A stretch of DNA of 64,000 bases from Halopseudomonas oceani (GTDB lineage: Bacteria; Pseudomonadota; Gammaproteobacteria; Pseudomonadales; Pseudomonadaceae): contig NZ_PPSK01000009.1 of assembly GCF_002903165.1 (NCBI RefSeq), forward strand, positions 62,001-126,000, in the 5' to 3' direction. This document shows, piece after piece, positions 48,777-59,513 of the stretch. The notes under the pieces were generated by a model, which was not told the DNA's origin, did not search any database, and was given only the letters and a program-made list of their open reading frames with translations. Each line of letters opens with the position of its first letter. Position 1 is the stretch's first letter. The translations under genes were made by a program, and so were the position numbers.

Positions 48777-50744
48777 TCAGCCTCCGATGACGCCGCCGTC
48801 TTCCCGCCTGATCATCACTGTGGTGGAGCGGGGGCGGGTTATTCCATCGCTGGCCGGGTAACTGATGCCCGGGTGCTGCACGTTAACCCACAGGGTGCGG
48901 GCATCGGGCGTCCAGGTGATACCGGTGATCTCGGCGCCGCGCGGCCCGACAAGGAAGCGCCGTATTTCGCGGCTGACTGGGTCTGCGCAAAGCATCTGGT
49001 TACAGCCGATGTCGGCGGTATAGTGCGTGGTTTCATCGGCGTCGGTCAGAATCCACAGGCGACCGTCCGGGTCGAAGGCCATGCCGTCCGGCGATGAAAA
49101 CAAGTCACCCTCGATGTTGCCGATGCGATTGGCGGGAACACTGCCATCGCTTTTCTGGCGCTCTCCAGCCAGTACAAACAGATCCCATTCAAACTCGGTT
49201 GCCCATGGATCGGCTCCGGCTTCGCGCCAGCGCAGGATCTGGCCGTGGACGTTTTCCTCGCGGGGGTTGGCCGCATCGGTTGGATCGGTTTTACCGCGCT
49301 CGGTGTTGTTGGTCAGGCTGACATACATTTCGCGCGTTTGCGGATGGGCGGCGACCCACTCCGGCCGGTCCATCGGGGTCGCGCCTATCGCATCGGCCGC
49401 GCCACGGGCGTTCAGCAGTACGGCATGCTGGTCAGCAAAGCCATTCTCTGGTGTCAGCCCCGGCGCGCCCCAGCGCAAAGGCAACCACTCGCCACGGCCG
49501 TCAGCATCAAAGCGGGCGGCGTACAGAGTGCCACTGTCTAGCAGATCGCGGTTGCGGTCGATGTCGCCCGCTTTATAAGGCTGCTCGGGGAGGAACTTGT
49601 AAACGTACTCACCGCGCGCATCATCACCGGAATAGACCGCCATATGACCACGCTCGTCGACGACGCAGGTGGCGCACTCACGGCCCAGGCGTCCCATTGC
49701 TGTGCGCTTGCGTGGCTTGTCGTTGGGGTTGAACGGATCGACTTCTACCACCCAGCCAAAGCGGTTTGGCTCATTGACGTGCCCCTGATACGGGCGATCT
49801 GCGCCCGGTGTGGCGTTAAAGCGCGGGTCCACTGATTCCCATGCGTAGTACCGGCTGCTGCCACTCAGGCCGATACCGTAGCGTTTGTGGGTCGATCGGG
49901 TGTTGTAGTCCGCCTCGTCGCGGTTCACAAAGTAGTTGTGAAAGTTCTCTTCGCAGGCCAGATAGGTTTGCCACGGGGTGGCGCCCATCGAACAGTTGTT
50001 GATGGTCCCTAGTACCTCCAGCCCTGATGGATCGCTCTCTGTGCGCATTGCCGTATGACCGGCAAGGGGGCCGCTGATAGTCATCGGAGTGGTGGCGGTA
50101 ATGCGCCGGTTGAATTTCGAATCTGCGACCCGCTGCCACTGGCCGCTGGCGTCGCGGCGGATCTCGATAATGCTCAGGCCGTGGGCAGCCATCTCCTTGT
50201 ACACCTGCTCGGCCGGGCGGTCTCGGCTATTGTCCTCTCGCTGTGTGAACTGCATGCCGTTGGGGTGCAGGGTTGGGTTGACGTACTCGTGATTAACGAC
50301 CAGCAGGCCATGCTCGTTGGGCTGGTCGGCAAAGGGAAAGTAATGCATGCCGTCGTTGTTGTCGCCAGCCTGCATCAACTGATCCTCCCAGCTGTCGCTG
50401 GCGTCACTCCGCCAGGCTGGAGCGCCCGGCAGTACGGCGTCACCCCAACTGAAGAAGGGCGTGGCGCGATAGCCGGACGGGACAATTACACTATCAAATG
50501 AGCTTGAGGTTTGTGCTGCAACGCTTTGAAATCCAAGTAAAGAGTTACGTATTTCTTTCTGCTCAGAGGTGCAGGCGCTGAGCAGCGACGGTAGCAGGCT
50601 GGCCAATGACGCAGCGCCTATTCCTTTGAGCAGGGTGCGCCTGTTGACCGCAACGCTGGCGAGATCGGCTGCCCGGCTGGGGTTGATGCGTTGGTCGTCG
50701 ACCGCTTCCAATTGACGGTGAAACTCGGGGTTTTGCCAGCTCAT
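48777..50744 (-). CDS. PhoX-family (DUF839) alkaline phosphatase-like lipoprotein, Tat exported
   Basis: A 655-residue protein. The twin-arginine motif is NRRTLLKG (R35, R36) followed by a hydrophobic stretch and a lipobox ending at C58 (LPSLLSAC), so it is predicted to be folded in the cytoplasm, exported by Tat and lipid-anchored. The body is a beta-propeller with PhoX traits: LVVNHEYVNPTLHP, NCSMGATPWQTYLACEENFHNY, VDPFNPNDKPRKRTAMGRLG and WILTDADE. PhoX enzymes hydrolyse phosphate esters with Ca2+ and Fe3+. It is the last gene of the TonB/phytase operon, eight bases after tonB, so it likely works on organic phosphate. Confidence 0.9.
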   Translation of the reverse strand: MSWQNPEFHRQLEAVDDQRINPSRAADLASVAVNRRTLLKGIGAASLASLLPSLLSACTSEQKEIRNSLLGFQSVAAQTSSSFDSVIVPSGYRATPFFSWGDAVLPGAPAWRSDASDSWEDQLMQAGDNNDGMHYFPFADQPNEHGLLVVNHEYVNPTLHPNGMQFTQREDNSRDRPAEQVYKEMAAHGLSIIEIRRDASGQWQRVADSKFNRRITATTPMTISGPLAGHTAMRTESDPSGLEVLGTINNCSMGATPWQTYLACEENFHNYFVNRDEADYNTRSTHKRYGIGLSGSSRYYAWESVDPRFNATPGADRPYQGHVNEPNRFGWVVEVDPFNPNDKPRKRTAMGRLGRECATCVVDERGHMAVYSGDDARGEYVYKFLPEQPYKAGDIDRNRDLLDSGTLYAARFDADGRGEWLPLRWGAPGLTPENGFADQHAVLLNARGAADAIGATPMDRPEWVAAHPQTREMYVSLTNNTERGKTDPTDAANPREENVHGQILRWREAGADPWATEFEWDLFVLAGERQKSDGSVPANRIGNIEGDLFSSPDGMAFDPDGRLWILTDADETTHYTADIGCNQMLCADPVSREIRRFLVGPRGAEITGITWTPDARTLWVNVQHPGISYPASDGITRPRSTTVMIRREDGGVIGG

Positions 50745-50751
50745 ATTTGAC

Positions 50752-51555
50752 TCACTGTGACAGGCGGTAGCGGAAGGTGTTGCGCACCCCGGTAACCGCT
50801 ACAGGCTGGCCATTGACCAGCCTTGGTTGATAGATGAAATCCTTGGCAGCAGCAAGCGAAGGCCGAGCGAACAGCGGGTTGTCGCATGCCCCGCTGACCA
50901 GTCGCGGGTTGTCGACGCGGCCGTTGGCGTTGACGTCGTATTCAACGGTGCAGTCGCCTTCCAGCCGCTGGGTTAGTGCACGTCTGGGGTAGTCCGGCTC
51001 GGGCTTGCTTAACGGCAGATATTGGCGTTGCGCTGCGGCGCGTTCGGCGGCCGCTGCGGCTGCAGCATCTGCGGCTGCCTGTTGGCGCGCAAGCTCATCC
51101 AGCCGCTGCTGTTCAGCAGCAGCTTGGGCGGCGAGCCTCTGCTGTTCGGCGCGCTCCTGTTCCCGTTCAAGGGCTTCGCGGCGCTGCTGTTGTTCGCGCT
51201 CCTGTCGCTCGGCCAGGCGCTTGCGAGCGATGGCTGCCTCGTCGACCACCGGCTTGGGTGGCGGCGCCTCTACAACTGGCGTCGGTGGTTCCGGTGCCGG
51301 CGGGGAGGGCGCTGTAACCGGGGCGACGGTTGGTTCAGGGGCGGGCACCGGCAACGTCACCAACTGCGTTCGTATGCTGGTTTGTTCTGCAGGTACCGGC
51401 GAGCGGGTTGGTTCCCAGCCGGCCCACAACAGTCCCGCGACGGCAGCGTGCAGCGCCAGCGTCGTCAGCAGTGGTGCTGCAATGCCGCGGTTTGACTCGC
51501 TCGGTACCGAACTGCGTTCCTGCAGCAGCATGAGGGGTGGAGTTGCTGCGCTCAT
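50752..51555 (-). CDS. tonB: TonB-family energy transducer of the phytase/receptor operon
   Basis: A 267-residue protein. One membrane helix near residues 27-46 (PLLTTLALHAAVAGLLWAGW), a Pro-rich periplasmic stretch (about 75-105), a charged Arg/Gln/Glu/Ala helix (about 105-180), and a C-terminal TonB domain (LSKPEPDYPRRALTQRLEGD, then VSGACDNPLFARPSLAAAKD and YQPRLVNGQPV). It spans the periplasm to energise the receptor encoded in the same operon. It overlaps exbD by four bases (ATGA). Confidence 0.92.
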   Translation of the reverse strand: MSAATPPLMLLQERSSVPSESNRGIAAPLLTTLALHAAVAGLLWAGWEPTRSPVPAEQTSIRTQLVTLPVPAPEPTVAPVTAPSPPAPEPPTPVVEAPPPKPVVDEAAIARKRLAERQEREQQQRREALEREQERAEQQRLAAQAAAEQQRLDELARQQAAADAAAAAAAERAAAQRQYLPLSKPEPDYPRRALTQRLEGDCTVEYDVNANGRVDNPRLVSGACDNPLFARPSLAAAKDFIYQPRLVNGQPVAVTGVRNTFRYRLSQ

Positions 51556-51998
51556 GGGGCTTCCGTAATCAGACCTAGTTGGCTGATGCCTGCCTGTTGT
51601 AGCGCGGCCATGCCTGCGACCACGACTCCGTACCCCGCACCCGCGTCGGCACGGATGAATACCTGAGTGTCCGGCTGGGCTTGGATTGCGGCGCTCAGTT
51701 CGCGGGTAAGATCTTCCAGGCTGGCGCTGCTGTGCTGGTAGTCGTCGGTCCGCACGCTCTCGCCCATGTTCCAGTGGTAACCGCCCTCGGCATCAATGGA
51801 CAGGGTGACGACGGACGACGGGTTTTCCGGCTCCAGTGCTTCGGCGGCGACCTTGGGTAGTTCGATCTGTACGCCTTGGGTCATCATTGGTGCGGTGACC
51901 ATGAAGATCACCAGCAATACCAGCATGACGTCGATATACGGCACCACATTCATTTCAGCTTTGGGCTTGCGCTTGATTCGGCCTGCTCGCATTTCCAT
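51552..51998 (-). CDS. exbD: Biopolymer transport protein ExbD
   Basis: A 148-residue protein with one N-terminal membrane helix (VVPYIDVMLVLLVIFMVTAP, about 18-38) that carries the conserved proton-path aspartate in PYIDVML. The periplasmic domain ends in the typical VFIRADAGAGYGVVVAGMAALQQAGI. With ExbB it forms the motor that powers TonB. Six bases separate it from exbB; it overlaps tonB. Confidence 0.94.
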   Translation of the reverse strand: MEMRAGRIKRKPKAEMNVVPYIDVMLVLLVIFMVTAPMMTQGVQIELPKVAAEALEPENPSSVVTLSIDAEGGYHWNMGESVRTDDYQHSSASLEDLTRELSAAIQAQPDTQVFIRADAGAGYGVVVAGMAALQQAGISQLGLITEAP

Positions 51999-52004
51999 GG
52001 CTGC

Positions 52005-52682
<678 letters not shown>

Positions 52683-52740: not shown

Positions 52741-54678
52741 TCAGGGCAGTTGCAGCAGGTCGGCGATGGGCTGCCAGGGCACCAGCTTGAAGTTCTGATT
52801 GCCCTCGGGCAGGCGCTTGCGACCGTCCTGGACCACCAGCAGCCCGCCGGGCCAGGCGGCGCCGAAGTCGGCCGAGCTGACTTCCAGGCCGTCGGTTTCC
52901 GAGACGCCGTCAATGCCGGAGAGTGCATTCAGGCCAATGCGGAAGGCGCCGTGCGCGCGGTAGGGCGGCAAGGCGTCCAGCACTACGTAGCTGTCGTTGC
53001 CTTGGCTGGAGACGATCAGGTACGGCTTCTGTGAGTGCTGGTAGATCGCCATGCCTTCGACGTCGTCGTGCAGCAGATCGCCGACGCTGATCACCGAGGT
53101 CAACTCTGTGGGCTGACCTTCAGCGGCAGACAGCGTCCAGATACCGACGGCTTCCTCACCGATGAACAACTGCTGGCGGGCGTCGTCGGCAACACAGCCT
53201 TCGGGCTGGGTGTCGGTGCGGAACTGGCGAACTGCGCTGGCGCTGACCTTACCGTCGCTGCCATCCAGGCGGTACTGAATGAAACGGCCGTCCTTGTCGT
53301 TGGGAATGGCGTAGACCGTGCCGTCCGGGCTTTGGCTCATGCACAGGCCGTAGATGTCAGTGAGGTCAGTGGCGATATCGCCCAGCCCGCTGACCTGACC
53401 GCTGGCCGGGTCAATGGCGAACAGTTCCAGACTGTGGCGGTCGCGATTGCTGGCCACGGCCAGATCAATCTGCCGGTCGCCAAGGGTGAAACCTTTGCGG
53501 ATATCGACATTATTGATGCGTCCGACCGGCAGATATTGCAGCTCACGCCCCTGCAGATCGTAGACGCCAAGCCCGCCGCGTTTGTCCGTGCCGAGTACGC
53601 GTGCCAGTTCGGGGATGCTTGGGTGGGGCCAAATGGCTGGATCATCTGCCGCGTCGCCACCGTGTGGTACTGGCGCTGTTTGTGCGGTGGCAAAAACCTC
53701 GGGCAATGTTGGCGCGTTGAGCAGGCTGCTGCCAGCATCCAGCTCGGTCAGCAGCTGTTGACCGCTGTCGTCGATGATCAGCACCTGCAGGGCATCACCC
53801 TGAGCGCGCACGGACAGCTGCTCGGGCTTGCGTCCCTCGTTCAACGGCCAGCTCTGGTGTTGCCATTGTTCGTCCTGCCAACGGTAACGATGCAGGCTGT
53901 TGCTGCCGGTATCCAGCGCAAGCAGGCCGTCAGCAGTGCTGGCAAGCCCCTCTGGGCCTTCGGGCAACGAGCCCCAGGGCTGATTCAGGTCGACGATGCT
54001 TCGGTTGCTGTCGGTTTCCGGGCGCGGGTCGTAGCGCCAGATGCCGATCTCCTCCTCGCTGACGAACAGCGCGTTCAGCTCAGCGTTAACCGTGCAGGAC
54101 TTGGCGCCGACCGGTAGGTGCAGGGTGCGTACCAGGCGGGATTGGGTGCCTTGTTCACCGACCAGCCATTGCTGGCCGAGGCCCTCCTCGCCAATCAAAA
54201 ACAGATAATCGTGGTGGCTTTGATCCTGATAGAAACACAGGTCTTCCAGCGGGTAGCCGGTGCTCGGCAGGTATTCCGGCGCGATGGCAGCGTTATCCGC
54301 GTTCCAGCGCAGGATAACCGGTTGATCGCGCTGCAGGTCATGGCTGGCGGCGATCAGGCCGCTACGGCCTTGATGTACCGCCAGCGTGTCGTAGTAGCCG
54401 GGCAGGGCAGCGGAAACCGACTGCTCGCTGGCATCCAGGCGCTGGATACCGTGCTGGTTGATCACCAGGCTGCCGGCCTGCTCGCCGGGCAGCATGCGCT
54501 GGGCGCTGATGCCGCTGGCGTTGCGGATCTGAATGGTCAGCTCACTGCGGCTGACGTCGGTGGCAGCCGCGGGTTGCGCGGCGCCTTGGGTGGTGTCCTG
54601 TTCGTTGCAGGCGCTCAGCAGCAGGCTGCTGCCGAGCACTGCGATCAGGGAGATGACTGGACGCATGGTGTATCTCAT
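52741..54678 (-). CDS. Beta-propeller phytase, lipoprotein, double-domain size
   Basis: A protein of about 645 residues. It has a lipoprotein signal (PVISLIAVLGSSLLLSAC). The C-terminal half is a beta-propeller phytase: DDPAIWPHP, LGTDKRGGLGVYDLQGRELQ, INNVDIRKGF, QPEGCVADDARQQLFIGEEA and SSQGNDSYVV hold the acidic and Arg/Lys residues that bind Ca2+ and phosphate. The N-terminal half is a second, more diverged propeller (LEDLCFYQ, LFVSEEEIGIWRYDPRPE). Such enzymes release phosphate from inositol hexakisphosphate. Start at 54678 or the in-frame ATG at 54666. It follows the receptor gene by 46 bases and precedes exbB by 58. Confidence 0.9.
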   Translation of the reverse strand: MRYTMRPVISLIAVLGSSLLLSACNEQDTTQGAAQPAAATDVSRSELTIQIRNASGISAQRMLPGEQAGSLVINQHGIQRLDASEQSVSAALPGYYDTLAVHQGRSGLIAASHDLQRDQPVILRWNADNAAIAPEYLPSTGYPLEDLCFYQDQSHHDYLFLIGEEGLGQQWLVGEQGTQSRLVRTLHLPVGAKSCTVNAELNALFVSEEEIGIWRYDPRPETDSNRSIVDLNQPWGSLPEGPEGLASTADGLLALDTGSNSLHRYRWQDEQWQHQSWPLNEGRKPEQLSVRAQGDALQVLIIDDSGQQLLTELDAGSSLLNAPTLPEVFATAQTAPVPHGGDAADDPAIWPHPSIPELARVLGTDKRGGLGVYDLQGRELQYLPVGRINNVDIRKGFTLGDRQIDLAVASNRDRHSLELFAIDPASGQVSGLGDIATDLTDIYGLCMSQSPDGTVYAIPNDKDGRFIQYRLDGSDGKVSASAVRQFRTDTQPEGCVADDARQQLFIGEEAVGIWTLSAAEGQPTELTSVISVGDLLHDDVEGMAIYQHSQKPYLIVSSQGNDSYVVLDALPPYRAHGAFRIGLNALSGIDGVSETDGLEVSSADFGAAWPGGLLVVQDGRKRLPEGNQNFKLVPWQPIADLLQLP

Positions 54679-54724
54679 TGATGTCGATAGGGGCGGCGGG
54701 GCTCTGGGCTCCCGCCGCATTCGC

Positions 54725-57235
54725 TCAGAAGTGGGTGAGGGTCAGGCCGACCTTGTAGGTCGGGCCGTACTCTTCGTACTGGGCGTTGTAGCGGCGTGAG
54801 CCGGTATAGACGTAGTAGCTCTCGTCGGTGATGTTCTGCGCGGCCATGAACACCTGCAGGTTGTCGGTCAGGAAGTAGCTGGCCGACAGATCGACGAACA
54901 ACTGGTCGTCAACGCGGTAGTCGTAGCGCTTGTCCAGCACGTCGCCAACCTCGTCGAGGTAGTCCGACTTGTAGTTGGCGGAGATGCGCAGGCTCAGTTT
55001 GTCGTTTTCCCAGCCGAGTGTGAGGTTGCCGGTCAGATCGGACTGGCCCGGCAGATCGATGCTGCGCGACTGCATGCGGCCGGTATCTGCGTTGTACTGC
55101 TCGATATCGGCGTCCGAACGGCTGAGGGTGGTATTGGCGTTGACCAGCAGGCCGTTCCAGGGCGAGGGCAGCCAGCTGAACTTCTGCGCATAGGCCAGTT
55201 CCAGACCGTATACGGTGGCGCTGTCGCCGTTGACCGAGGTAATGGCTTCGTCGAATGCCGCGTATTGGCCGGTGCCGGCAACGTCAGCGGTGTAGACGAA
55301 ATTTTCGATGTCCTTTTAGAACAGGAAGGCAGACACCGCACCGGCGCGGCCCATGTAGTGTTCGATGCCGAAATCGAGGTTGCTGGACTCCAGTGGCTTC
55401 AGGTCGGGGTTACCGAACTCGGCGTCGTCGCCATCGACCACAAAGCCCGGGAACAGCTGGCCGAAGGTCGGGCGAACCACGCTGTTGGTCCAGCTGGCGC
55501 GCAGCTGACTGTTCGCGCCGAGTTGATAGATGGCGTGCAGGCCCGGCAGCCAGTGGTGATAGTCGTTGCGGGAGTTGACCGCTTCGAAGTTGCCGTCATT
55601 GAGGCCGGTGCCTTCCGACTTCAGGCGCGTACCTTCGTAGCGCAGGCCGGCGATGATGCGCAGATCGTCGATGTCGACGGTGTTCATCAGGTAGGCGGCG
55701 TTGATGTTTTCCTGAATGCTGAAGTCGTTGATACGTGACTGTTCTTCATCGTAGAAATCGGCCGGGTTGAGGCCACTGATCAGCCGCTCAAGCGCACTGG
55801 CAGAGATGCGCGGACCCAGGTTGGTGCGGCCGTTGGTAAACTGGCCGAGGCTCAGCTCAGCGTCGGTAAAGCCGTAATCGCCGAAGTCTTCATAGGCCCA
55901 AACCTCGAGATCGTTGTCTTTGGTGCGGGTACTGAACTTAGCGCCAAACTGCAGCTGCGACGGCAGGTCTGCCATGAACCAGTCGCGGGTCAGATCCACG
56001 CGAATGTTCTGTTCGGTGTCGGTGGTCAGCTGCTTTTCGCGCTCGACTTCGGTCAGGGTGAAATTGCTGGGGTCGTAGAATGCGCTGTCGATGATCAGAT
56101 TGGGCTGCTTGCTGTCGTTGTAACCGGCCGCGGTGAAGTCATCGTTACCTTCGAACTTGGCACCCGGTGTGTGCAGCGGGCTGTCTTCTTCGGCCTCGCT
56201 GTAGCCATACTGCGCCGCGACTTTCCAGTCGCCGAGCTGACGCTCGCCGCCAATCACCAGGCTTTTGATCTCCTGGGTTTCTTCGCGATCCTTGATTTCG
56301 CGCGTACCTTCGGCATCGCCACCCTCGCCGGGTAGTTGGGCGTCGGCAAACTCGATCACGTTGGCCTGGCGTGTTTCTGTGTCCTTGAAGCGGCTGTACA
56401 GGGTGCGCAGGTACAACTCCGTGTCTTCGTCTGGTCGATAGTCAACGTTGAAGCCCAGGCCCGCGCGTTCGCGGCTGATGTCGTACCGACGCTCCTCCAG
56501 TTCCTCCAGACGTGCACCAGCCGGGTCGTTAAAGTCCCAGGCACCACCGGTTTCGACGTTGTCGGAACCAAAGCTGCGATCTTCCCAGCTTACGGCGGTA
56601 GCGATGGCGAGGTTGTCGATACCGTCACCGACGCTGAAGCGGTTGCTGAACGCGCCGGATACCTTGGGGCTGGTGTCGCCGGTGTTCTCGTCGTAGCTGG
56701 CTTCGGTCGACAGACTGTAGAACATGGCGTCGTGATCGAAACCGGACAGGCTTTCGACCTCGATGGTGCCGCCGAGGGAGTTGGCGTCCATATCCGGGGT
56801 CAGGGTCTTGACCACCGAAAGTGACTGAATCAGCTCGCTCGGCAAAACGTCCATCGCCACGGCGCGGCGATCGCTTTCCGGTGCAGGTACCAGCGTGCCG
56901 TTGATGGTTACGCTGTTGAGGTCGGCTCCCAGACCCCGAACGCGGACGAAGCGGCCTTCGCCCTGATCGCGCTCAACAGAGATGCCCGGAACGCGCTGCA
57001 GTGCCTCGGCGGTGTTCTCATCGGGGAGCTGACCGATGGCGTCGGCGTGTACCACGCTCTCGGTGTTGTTGGACATGCGTTGCTCCTGCAGCGCCTGCTC
57101 CATCTGTGCAGCCTGACCGATGATGGTCATGACTTCGGTGGTGGCCTGCGCCCAACTGGCAGAGCTGCCTGCGATGGCAAGCGCCAGCGTGCTGATACGA
57201 AAGCTTGTATGCAGGCGTGAAGTGCGGACAGACAT
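54725..57235 (-). pseudogene. TonB-dependent receptor interrupted by an in-frame stop
   Basis: An outer-membrane receptor gene of 836 codons plus stop, broken after codon 639 by TAA at 55316-55318. The N-terminus has a signal peptide (LALAIAGSSASWAQA) and a plug with LPDENTAEALQRVPGISVER and VRVRGLGADLNSVTINGTLV, typical of the TonB/Xanthomonas-Caulobacter receptor class. The barrel reads through codon 639 (AVSAFLF), then KDIENFVYTADVAGTGQYAA continues in the same frame to the C-terminal GLTLTHF, ending in the phenylalanine expected of barrel proteins. A tyrosine codon is expected at the stop. Without it the truncated barrel lacks about 197 residues and should not fold. AGGAGAGGAA precedes the start. 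First gene of the phytase/TonB operon, so polarity is possible. A sequencing error cannot be excluded. Confidence 0.9.
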
Positions 57236-57550
57236 GGGGTTCCTCTCCTGGCGAATGGGTTTCGTGTCCCGTTGGGAAGTGGAACTTAGGGAGGCGATGT
57301 GGCGTTTCTGTGACAGTCTTCGACGTCTGGTCGCGAAATGAGTCGAAACCGCTGCCTGTGCGCTGGGTTTTGAGCTGAATTGACCTCACAAGCCGCTCTG
57401 TAAGGCCCATTGCCCGGCGTCTGCAGGTTTAGTTCGGTGCTTTTGGATCGGTGCGGTGCAGGTACAGTGAGCCAATTTGACCCGTGCACTGACACGGAAC
57501 CGTCATCTTGCTTTGGTCTGCTGGCGCCATTGAATGCCCGCGAGGTTGAA
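57236..57550. other. Divergent control region upstream of the receptor operon
   Basis: A 315-base gap between the receptor gene (minus) and the GGDEF-like gene (plus). It holds candidate Pho boxes: CTGACAC-4-CCGTCAT at 57489-57506 (plus), and on the minus strand CTGTCAC (57310-57316) followed after four bases by the poor repeat ACGCCAC. No other gene is seen. Confidence 0.5.
57489..57506 (+). promoter_or_regulatory. Candidate Pho box
   Basis: CTGACAC, four bases (GGAA), CCGTCAT: two heptamers in the 7-4-7 spacing of a PhoB box, each one mismatch from CTGTCA(T/C). It is 44 bases before the GGDEF-like gene and about 255 bases upstream of the receptor start. Confidence 0.4.
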
Positions 57551-58468
57551 ATGAACTCGATGTTTTTCCTGCACCGGATCAAATGGCTAGGCTTGCTGCT
57601 GCTCGCCAATGCAGGGTTGATGCTGTATCTCAGCCTGGGTGAGCTGAAGCCGGTCAGTATCTGGGCCTGGACTGATATCACCGGCGAAGGCAGCTCGGCG
57701 CTGCTTGTGCTGGCGTGGACTGCGCTGATGTTGAAAGGGCGGCCAGCAGGTCGGGTGACCAATCTGCTGTTCGTCGGTCTAGCCTGCCTGTTTCTATCAC
57801 TGTGGATGGACACATTGGACGAGTTTGTCGCCCTGCCAGAGGCGGTTATGTGGGACCACTGGCTGGAATCTGCGCCGATGCCGGTCGGGTTTGTGCTGTT
57901 GACGGTCGGGATATACCACTGGCATCGAGAACAGCTGGCGATCAACGCGCAGATGGTCAACCGCGAGCGCCACTTCAGGGAACATCGGCAGTTCGACAAG
58001 CTGACACCGCTGGCGGATGCCGGGTACCTGCGCAGTCAGCTGGCGCTGGCACTGCCGCAAGCTGAGTCATCGCAGCAGCCGCTGTCGCTGTTGACGATAG
58101 ATCTGGATGACTTTCATCAGGTCAATGAGCGCTATGGCCATCAGGAGGGGGATCGGGTGCTGCAACTGGTCTGTCAGCTGCTACTCATGAGTCTGCGTCG
58201 TCATGATCTGCTCTGTCGTCTGGCTGGCGACCGCTTTGCCCTGCTGCTGCCCAATACGCTGGAGGAGCAGGCGCAGACCATCGCCCGTGAGATCAGTGCG
58301 TCGATCGCACATCTGGCGTGCAGAAGCGCGCAGCAGGGGGAGCGGATCCTGCTGCGGGCAACCGTGGTGGCGGTGATGGCGCGTCAGGACGATGTGGATT
58401 CGTTGCTGCAGCGCAGTAATCTGGCGATGGCGCACGCCAAACAGGCGCTGCAGTTAAAGCGAGCCTGA
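57551..58468 (+). CDS. Degenerate GGDEF-domain membrane protein
   Basis: A 305-residue protein with three to four hydrophobic helices (about 9-28, 48-62, 70-88, 110-125), then a GGDEF-like domain (about 145-300). The metal-site segment TIDLDDFHQVNERYGHQEGD is kept, but the active-site motif is AGDRF (225-229) where GG(D/E)EF is needed, so cyclase activity is unlikely. The inhibitory I-site R216-D219 is kept, which suggests a c-di-GMP receptor role. ATG at 57551 follows GAGG; the AraC gene starts four bases after the stop. Divergent from the phytase/TonB operon. Confidence 0.82.
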   Translation: MNSMFFLHRIKWLGLLLLANAGLMLYLSLGELKPVSIWAWTDITGEGSSALLVLAWTALMLKGRPAGRVTNLLFVGLACLFLSLWMDTLDEFVALPEAVMWDHWLESAPMPVGFVLLTVGIYHWHREQLAINAQMVNRERHFREHRQFDKLTPLADAGYLRSQLALALPQAESSQQPLSLLTIDLDDFHQVNERYGHQEGDRVLQLVCQLLLMSLRRHDLLCRLAGDRFALLLPNTLEEQAQTIAREISASIAHLACRSAQQGERILLRATVVAVMARQDDVDSLLQRSNLAMAHAKQALQLKRA

Positions 58469-58472
58469 TCGC

Positions 58473-59513
58473 ATGACCTCGAACGCGACCCCGCGCTGGT
58501 ATGACGCCGATGCCAAGGTGATCTGGGCAGGGCATCAGCCCGCCTGTCTGGTCGATCTGGCGTTAAGTCGGGGTATCGACAGTCATCGGTTGATGCGTGG
58601 TAGCGGGCTGTTTTATGACGACTTGCTGGCGCCAGACGCCATGATCAGTGCCAGTCAGTATCTACGTTTGATCGACAATGCGCGGCAACTGCTGGATGCG
58701 AACGACAGCAGCTTTCTGCTAGGGCAGCGTTTGCTGCCGGGGCACTTTGGTGCCTGCAGCAATGTGCTGCTGCACGCGGACACGCTGCTGCAGGCGTTGC
58801 ACCAGTTGGTCAATTTCAGGGTGTTGTTGTGTCCGTTACTTGCCCCGCGATTGGTAGTGGATGAGCACCATGCCTATGTGTACTGGATAGATGCACTGGC
58901 GTTGGGGCGCAGTCGCCAGTTTCTGTTTGAGACAAGTATGACTGCGGTGACGGCCCTGACGCGCACGCTGGCAGGTGAGTCGCTGCCGTGGGAGTACCGC
59001 ATGGCTTGGGCGGCTCCACGGCATGTCGAACAGTACTGGGTACACATGGGAGACCGGCTGCGCTTCGATGCGCCGATAACCTGCATGCGACTGCCACGCG
59101 AGGTATTGGTGCGGGCGCCGATGTCAGCTTCGCCGATGCTGGCGCGTATCGCCGAACGGCAGGCCGTGCTGGCGATCAATGCGTTGCCGGGTGAGGGTAC
59201 GCTGTCTGAGGTGGTGTTTGACTGCCTTTACCACAATGCGCGCAAGCGCCAGGGGCTTGATCAGGTAGCGGACTACTTTGGTATGAGTGCGGCGACATTC
59301 AAGAGGCGGTTGCAGCGCGAGGGAACCGGGTATCAGGCCTTGCTGGATCGCGCTCACACGCAAATAGCGCTAGAGCTGTATCAGGGGCGGGGCTGCAGTC
59401 ACGATCAGGTGGCGGAGAGTATGCAGATCAGCGACCGAACTAACTTCCGGCGGCTGCTCAAAAGGCTGACCGGTAAGTCGCCGGACAGCCTCAGGGTTTG
59501 GCTAGAAAGTTGA
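58473..59513 (+). CDS. AraC-family regulator with Arabinose_bd-type N-terminal domain
   Basis: A 346-residue protein. The N-terminal ~200 residues are the effector domain found in OruR/ArgR-like AraC proteins (LVDLALSRGIDSHRLMRGSG, QYLRLIDNARQLLDANDSSF). The C-terminal ~100 residues have the two helix-turn-helix units (LDQVADYFGMSAATFKRRLQ, CSHDQVAESMQISDRTNFRR) and the closing LTGKSPDSLRVWL. It begins four bases after the GGDEF-like gene and is probably co-transcribed with it. Target genes are unknown; the GGDEF-like gene or the receptor operon are candidates. Confidence 0.87.
   Translation: MTSNATPRWYDADAKVIWAGHQPACLVDLALSRGIDSHRLMRGSGLFYDDLLAPDAMISASQYLRLIDNARQLLDANDSSFLLGQRLLPGHFGACSNVLLHADTLLQALHQLVNFRVLLCPLLAPRLVVDEHHAYVYWIDALALGRSRQFLFETSMTAVTALTRTLAGESLPWEYRMAWAAPRHVEQYWVHMGDRLRFDAPITCMRLPREVLVRAPMSASPMLARIAERQAVLAINALPGEGTLSEVVFDCLYHNARKRQGLDQVADYFGMSAATFKRRLQREGTGYQALLDRAHTQIALELYQGRGCSHDQVAESMQISDRTNFRRLLKRLTGKSPDSLRVWLES

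Follow-up and report, generated by a model that had tools for sequence, protein, structure and literature searches.

In this strain of Halopseudomonas oceani, a recent and private nonsense mutation has probably inactivated the TonB-dependent receptor of a conserved operon for the uptake and hydrolysis of phytate. The window, by which we mean the whole stretch of 64,000 nucleotides analysed, carries the receptor on the minus strand, in a frame that runs from the ATG at 57235 to a TGA at 54725..54727, the end point shared by the orthologues. In the assembly sequence and its translation, the sole stop between both is a TAA at codon 640 (55316..55318). The 639 codons before it (55319..57235) encode a signal region, assigned by eye, the plug (PF07715) and about the first 14 strands of the barrel, and the 196 codons behind it (54728..55315) are open and encode the rest of strand 15, strands 16 to 22 and a terminal phenylalanine, the last residues being TLTHF. 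Profile searches assigned the two parts to adjoining stretches of TIGR01782: the upstream part matched positions 4-669 of 868 with 421.9 bits (cut-off 310), and the downstream part positions 671-867 with 146.5 bits, which alone is under that cut-off. In Pfam, the upstream part gave the plug and the barrel family PF00593, and the downstream part alone gave no family at E <= 0.001. The preliminary description had reported a single TAA without change of frame, followed by 196 open codons with a terminal phenylalanine, and the translation and the profile matches confirmed it. Since the profile matches adjoin, the orthologues are free of stops and other loci have a tyrosine at this codon (see below), the assembly truly contains the stop, and chance does not account for the open tail. 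The genome has no close second copy of the receptor; its only other match is remote, with 26% identity over a part.

In 105 other loci codon 640 was TAC (86), TAT (18) or CAC (1) and never a stop, so that a tyrosine stands there in 104 of them and a histidine in one, a remote homologue at 38% identity; it should be noted that this count pools two genome collections, with some species counted twice. The 106 loci, own copy included, were L002-L023, L032-L035 and L040-L119, leaving aside the duplicate of our own locus (L001) and the weak matches L024-L031 and L036-L039. Tyr640 is also invariant in an alignment of 33 homologues, and among the 289 columns invariant in these the protein of our strain departs at two, A75T and the stop. 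Within the genus, a match at E <= 0.001 was obtained in 30 genomes, 22 of them strong (own genome included) and eight short, at about 25-30% identity. The strong orthologues were thus present in 21 of the 36 other genomes (66-90% identity), none with an internal stop, as against one TAA in our own copy; the orthologue of genome G018 is broken by a contig end and goes on in another contig. Named relatives are those of Pseudomonas abyssi MT5 and Halopseudomonas pachastrellae JCM 12285, both at 90% identity, and a full-length protein, P0001 of Halopseudomonas sp. (836 amino acids), is 98% identical; taken by themselves, these relatives make Halopseudomonas the most likely genus. The absence of the stop from all 21 strong orthologues and all 105 loci is what is looked for in a recent nonsense pseudogene. 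The aromatic residue that had been anticipated at this place was borne out, the tyrosine codons of the relatives are indeed one base away from TAA, and the alignment of orthologues proposed as a check placed the stop in our genome alone among the loci read. A natural C-terminus at codon 640, seen in none of these loci, was rejected.

With regard to the age of the stop, the receptor differs from P0001 at 12 positions before the stop and at four from the stop on. When polarized with three outgroups, the 12 upstream differences were assigned to our lineage in five cases and to P0001 in three, four being ambiguous, and the three differences located behind the stop gave none in our lineage, two in P0001 and one ambiguous. 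The dN/dS of the tail was 0.050, 0.078 and 0.054 between our strain and L042, L040 and L041, and 0.044, 0.067 and 0.037 among these intact relatives; as dS is high (0.6-0.9), these ratios are approximate and for the most part record evolution before the stop arose. Little further decay was found, and the stop is young, since the tail behind it has not decayed. The proposal of a recent loss was supported in this way by the undecayed tail and by the existence of an intact relative at 98% identity, and a long-standing pseudogene was rejected, given the tail dN/dS and the lack of changes of our own lineage behind the stop. No clear relaxation was observed in the phytase either (dN/dS of 0.145-0.166 in pairs with our strain and 0.118-0.160 between relatives). 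As a separate observation, ExbD, a single short gene, presented higher values in pairs of our strain with three relatives (0.080-0.119) than between relatives (0.026-0.052).

The predicted consequence of the stop was considered on the AlphaFold model of the intact P0001, whose quality is moderate (mean pLDDT 66.1, residues 1-163 below 50) and which loosely resembles TonB-dependent transporters in the PDB (best match 8the, E 9.3e-25, TM 0.54 by target, rmsd 8.6). By our own count in this model, the barrel has the 22 strands that follow the plug in TonB-dependent receptors, and the stop would fall in strand 15 (residues 632-644), with the loss of strands 16 to 22 and of the terminal phenylalanine; the C-terminal strand with its terminal aromatic residue is encoded in our strain but lies behind the stop. 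Outer membrane barrels depend on the BAM machinery, and for one that lacks the final strands assembly is not expected. The 639-residue product, missing roughly one third of the barrel as well as the C-terminal assembly signal, would thus remain unassembled and be degraded, which would amount to a loss of receptor function. Phytate would no longer be imported, and the phytase and the TonB-ExbB-ExbD energizer would be left without their dedicated receptor. In addition, the approximately 650 untranslated bases ahead of the phytase may reduce the expression of the downstream genes by Rho-dependent polarity. A relaxed need for the system, in a phosphate-rich niche or in culture, would be the likely cause.

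The remaining genes of the operon, all on the minus strand, are open, in agreement with the earlier reading that they were intact: a beta-propeller phytase (52741..54666), an ExbB/TolQ-like proton channel (52005..52682), an ExbD/TolR-like protein (51552..51998) and TonB (50752..51555), the last three assigned by profile searches, and a PhoX-type phosphatase (48777..50744, PF05787 in Pfam). The label of phytase operon, given beforehand from the sequence, proved to be right, as the phytase matches PF02333 with an E of 1.9e-78 and has solved 3-phytases among its relatives. The motifs tabulated for PF02333 phytases, YG, EGxxxD, DxEG and DG (PMC12406696), were all recognized by eye in its translation, as YG, EGCVAD, DVEG and TDG, and an alignment to 3amr was made. 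Its N-terminus, a stretch ending in LLLSAC, looks by eye like a lipoprotein signal, and the enzyme is therefore a putative lipoprotein. On the periplasmic side it would now be without substrate, and on the outer side it may remain active. The ExbB- and ExbD-type proteins (51552-52682) score above the NCBIfam cut-offs of TolQ (TIGR02796) and TolR (TIGR02801), and stay below the ones set for ExbB and ExbD.

Apparently, this genetic organization is widely kept. In 80 receptor loci, with neighbours scored anywhere in the fetched stretch and several stretches stopping at contig ends, we found the phytase in 80, ExbB in 77, ExbD and TonB in 76 each and PhoX in 52. Among 37 genomes of the genus, the strong receptor orthologue and the phytase co-occur in the same 22, our own included, and are both absent from the same 15, some of which are incomplete. 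This co-occurrence, together with the neighbourhood, indicates that the receptor is bound to the phytase, of which our genome has one; judging from the neighbouring genes, the substrate of the receptor would be phytate or lower inositol phosphates. On the plus strand, the divergent genes for a GGDEF protein (57410..58468) and an AraC-type regulator (58473..59513) are each found in 73 of the 80 loci, a recurrence beside the phytate operon that hints at cyclic-di-GMP signalling tied to phytate use. Another genome of the genus, G007, has a phytase match with one TAA inside (C1:3694557-3695528) and an open receptor; this match extends a few profile positions beyond most others, and the TAA may be its normal end.

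In the region upstream of the receptor, we aligned window positions 57236-57420 with the corresponding regions of five relatives (L040-L043 and L116). A site on the minus strand at 57316-57299, CTGTCACAGAAACGCCAC, occupies the same place in these five, two of which have forms nearer to a PHO box (e.g. GTCACATAACTGTCAT); we take it to be PHO-box-like. Allowing three mismatches, the pattern was found 12 times in the window for 17.7 expected, which is not rarer than chance, so that it is positional conservation alone that argues for the site. A second conserved element, GTCAAWTMAGCTCA, is located some 150 bases ahead of the start of the receptor, in the interval that separates it from the GGDEF gene. 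A scan of 54400-57600 for the sigma-70 consensus gave no promoter.

Another aspect to be considered is whether the TAA arose in base calling or assembly, with the gene intact in the cell; this we consider unlikely, and several observations are nevertheless what an error would produce. The TAA was found in this assembly alone, the tyrosine codons of the relatives lie one base from it, and the tail has not decayed. Moreover, when the 639-residue product was used as query, no form of truncated length appeared among the best 120 of 2886 proteins, where the shortest had 752 amino acids (P0133, 66% identical), and an error predicts the same. The product of our own strain was also absent from these 120, so the list may simply not contain the products of pseudogenes, and the TAA allele is left without an independent witness. 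Against an error, nonsense alleles of recent origin occur commonly in genuine bacterial genomes, and the draft looks clean (4.155 Mb in 64 contigs, completeness 100, contamination 0.04; the window is on contig 9). A near-identity search for a plasmid origin gave no match. In the checks on readthrough and on error, headed by ALTERNATIVES, stops inside genes were sought by codon usage over 464 kb (the window and 20 further stretches, about 11% of the genome), a scan that does not see frame shifts and that needs at least 40 open codons on each side of a stop. It returned 17 candidate stops, and only two of these, the receptor TAA and C9:20545, were not followed by a start in the next 20 codons. 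On the strand opposite C9:20545 there is a longer frame, of 579 codons; the receptor TAA alone had coding sequence on both sides, no start within that distance and no longer frame opposite. Five of the 16 other candidates, C9:20545 among them, were inspected, three being opposite longer frames and two having the look of neighbouring genes in one frame, and the remaining 11 were judged by a nearby start codon only. No further stop inside a coherent gene was kept, and an error-ridden assembly was therefore not supported, but such a scan cannot clear the single base in the receptor.

If the TAA is real, the receptor could still be made at full length provided that ribosomes pass the stop to some extent, as the preliminary description had allowed beside a recent loss, a population variant and a base-calling error. 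The undecayed tail would fit, yet a stop younger than the time needed for decay looks identical. TAA is as a rule the least leaky stop, and the search for tRNAs (Rfam, E <= 0.001; a tRNA too odd for the model would escape it) gave 52 places, of which ARAGORN called 51, none with a UUA, CUA or UCA anticodon; at the 52nd the loop reads CCU. This last place (L184 134-65; C27:28604-28673 of our genome, minus strand) is weakly tRNA-like, with 32 bits, and is perhaps a remnant tRNA-Arg. Neither a suppressor tRNA nor a stop kept in relatives, one or the other being expected of a readthrough gene, was thus found; of the four proposals readthrough thereby became highly improbable, whereas a fixed loss, a strain variant and a base-calling error would all leave the picture observed. 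Even more far-fetched is a split receptor, whose halves would be made separately and then assemble: the tail holds an ATG-started frame of 116 codons (55075-54725), but this begins 80 codons past the stop and by eye has no export signal, and none of the relatives read has the break either. A different proposal accepts the loss and holds that it was selected, for example because a phage or a bacteriocin gains entry by way of the receptor, while a surface or released phytase still gives phosphate. Phages and bacteriocins often enter through TonB-dependent receptors, the PDB matches of the P0001 model include FpvAI with pyocin S2 and FhuA with the superinfection exclusion lipoprotein Llp, and the phytase and the other operon genes remain open. 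On the other hand, with a single allele selection and drift are not separated, and our literature search found no paper that brings together a receptor, a premature stop codon and resistance to phages; we regard a selected loss as very unlikely. Were it true, the strain would live on phosphate freed outside the cell or by its neighbours, and phytate uptake would have been traded against escape from phages in marine Halopseudomonas.

The finding is thus an ordinary young nonsense allele, most likely real, and as one more of its kind it has little weight for biology at large. For annotation, scoring the phytase gene alone would mistake this genome for that of a phytate user, if the receptor is needed. 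Furthermore, the strain is a natural variant suited to asking whether phytate use requires the receptor, by comparison with a relative whose receptor is intact and 98% identical. The receptor of Stutzerimonas stutzeri RM2, whose genome (CP077641.1) is complete, shows a change of frame near residue 154 (L119 8390-8480), with the downstream phytase still matched; this is either a second disruption that arose independently or an error of sequencing. The receptor may thus be lost more than once in genomes that keep the phytase, though two cases at the level of assemblies prove nothing.

When compared with known systems, the receptor agrees with those of TIGR01782 (TonB-Xanth-Caul) in that both parts match adjoining profile stretches, with plug and barrel in the upstream part, and differs in being split at codon 640, with the C-terminal third of the barrel untranslated. 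From what is available of the literature, a TonB-dependent receptor of Citromicrobium lies beside a phytase gene and its phytate substrate was deduced likewise, and PSPTO_3242 is in a cluster that has phytate among its substrates (PMC3400609). A gene with a phytase domain was also reported to be induced by extract of bean leaves, in a text whose accessible part says nothing on a phytate receptor (PMC2803797), and TonB is not mentioned in the accessible part of PMC12406696. As in the phytase-adjacent transporters described in the part of PMC3400609 at hand, the receptor of our strain lies directly upstream of the phytase, here with ExbB-, ExbD- and TonB-type genes in addition; in contrast to them, it is interrupted. 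With the ordinary recent nonsense pseudogenes of bacteria it shares the single stop, the intact close relative and the undecayed rest, and we found no difference from them.
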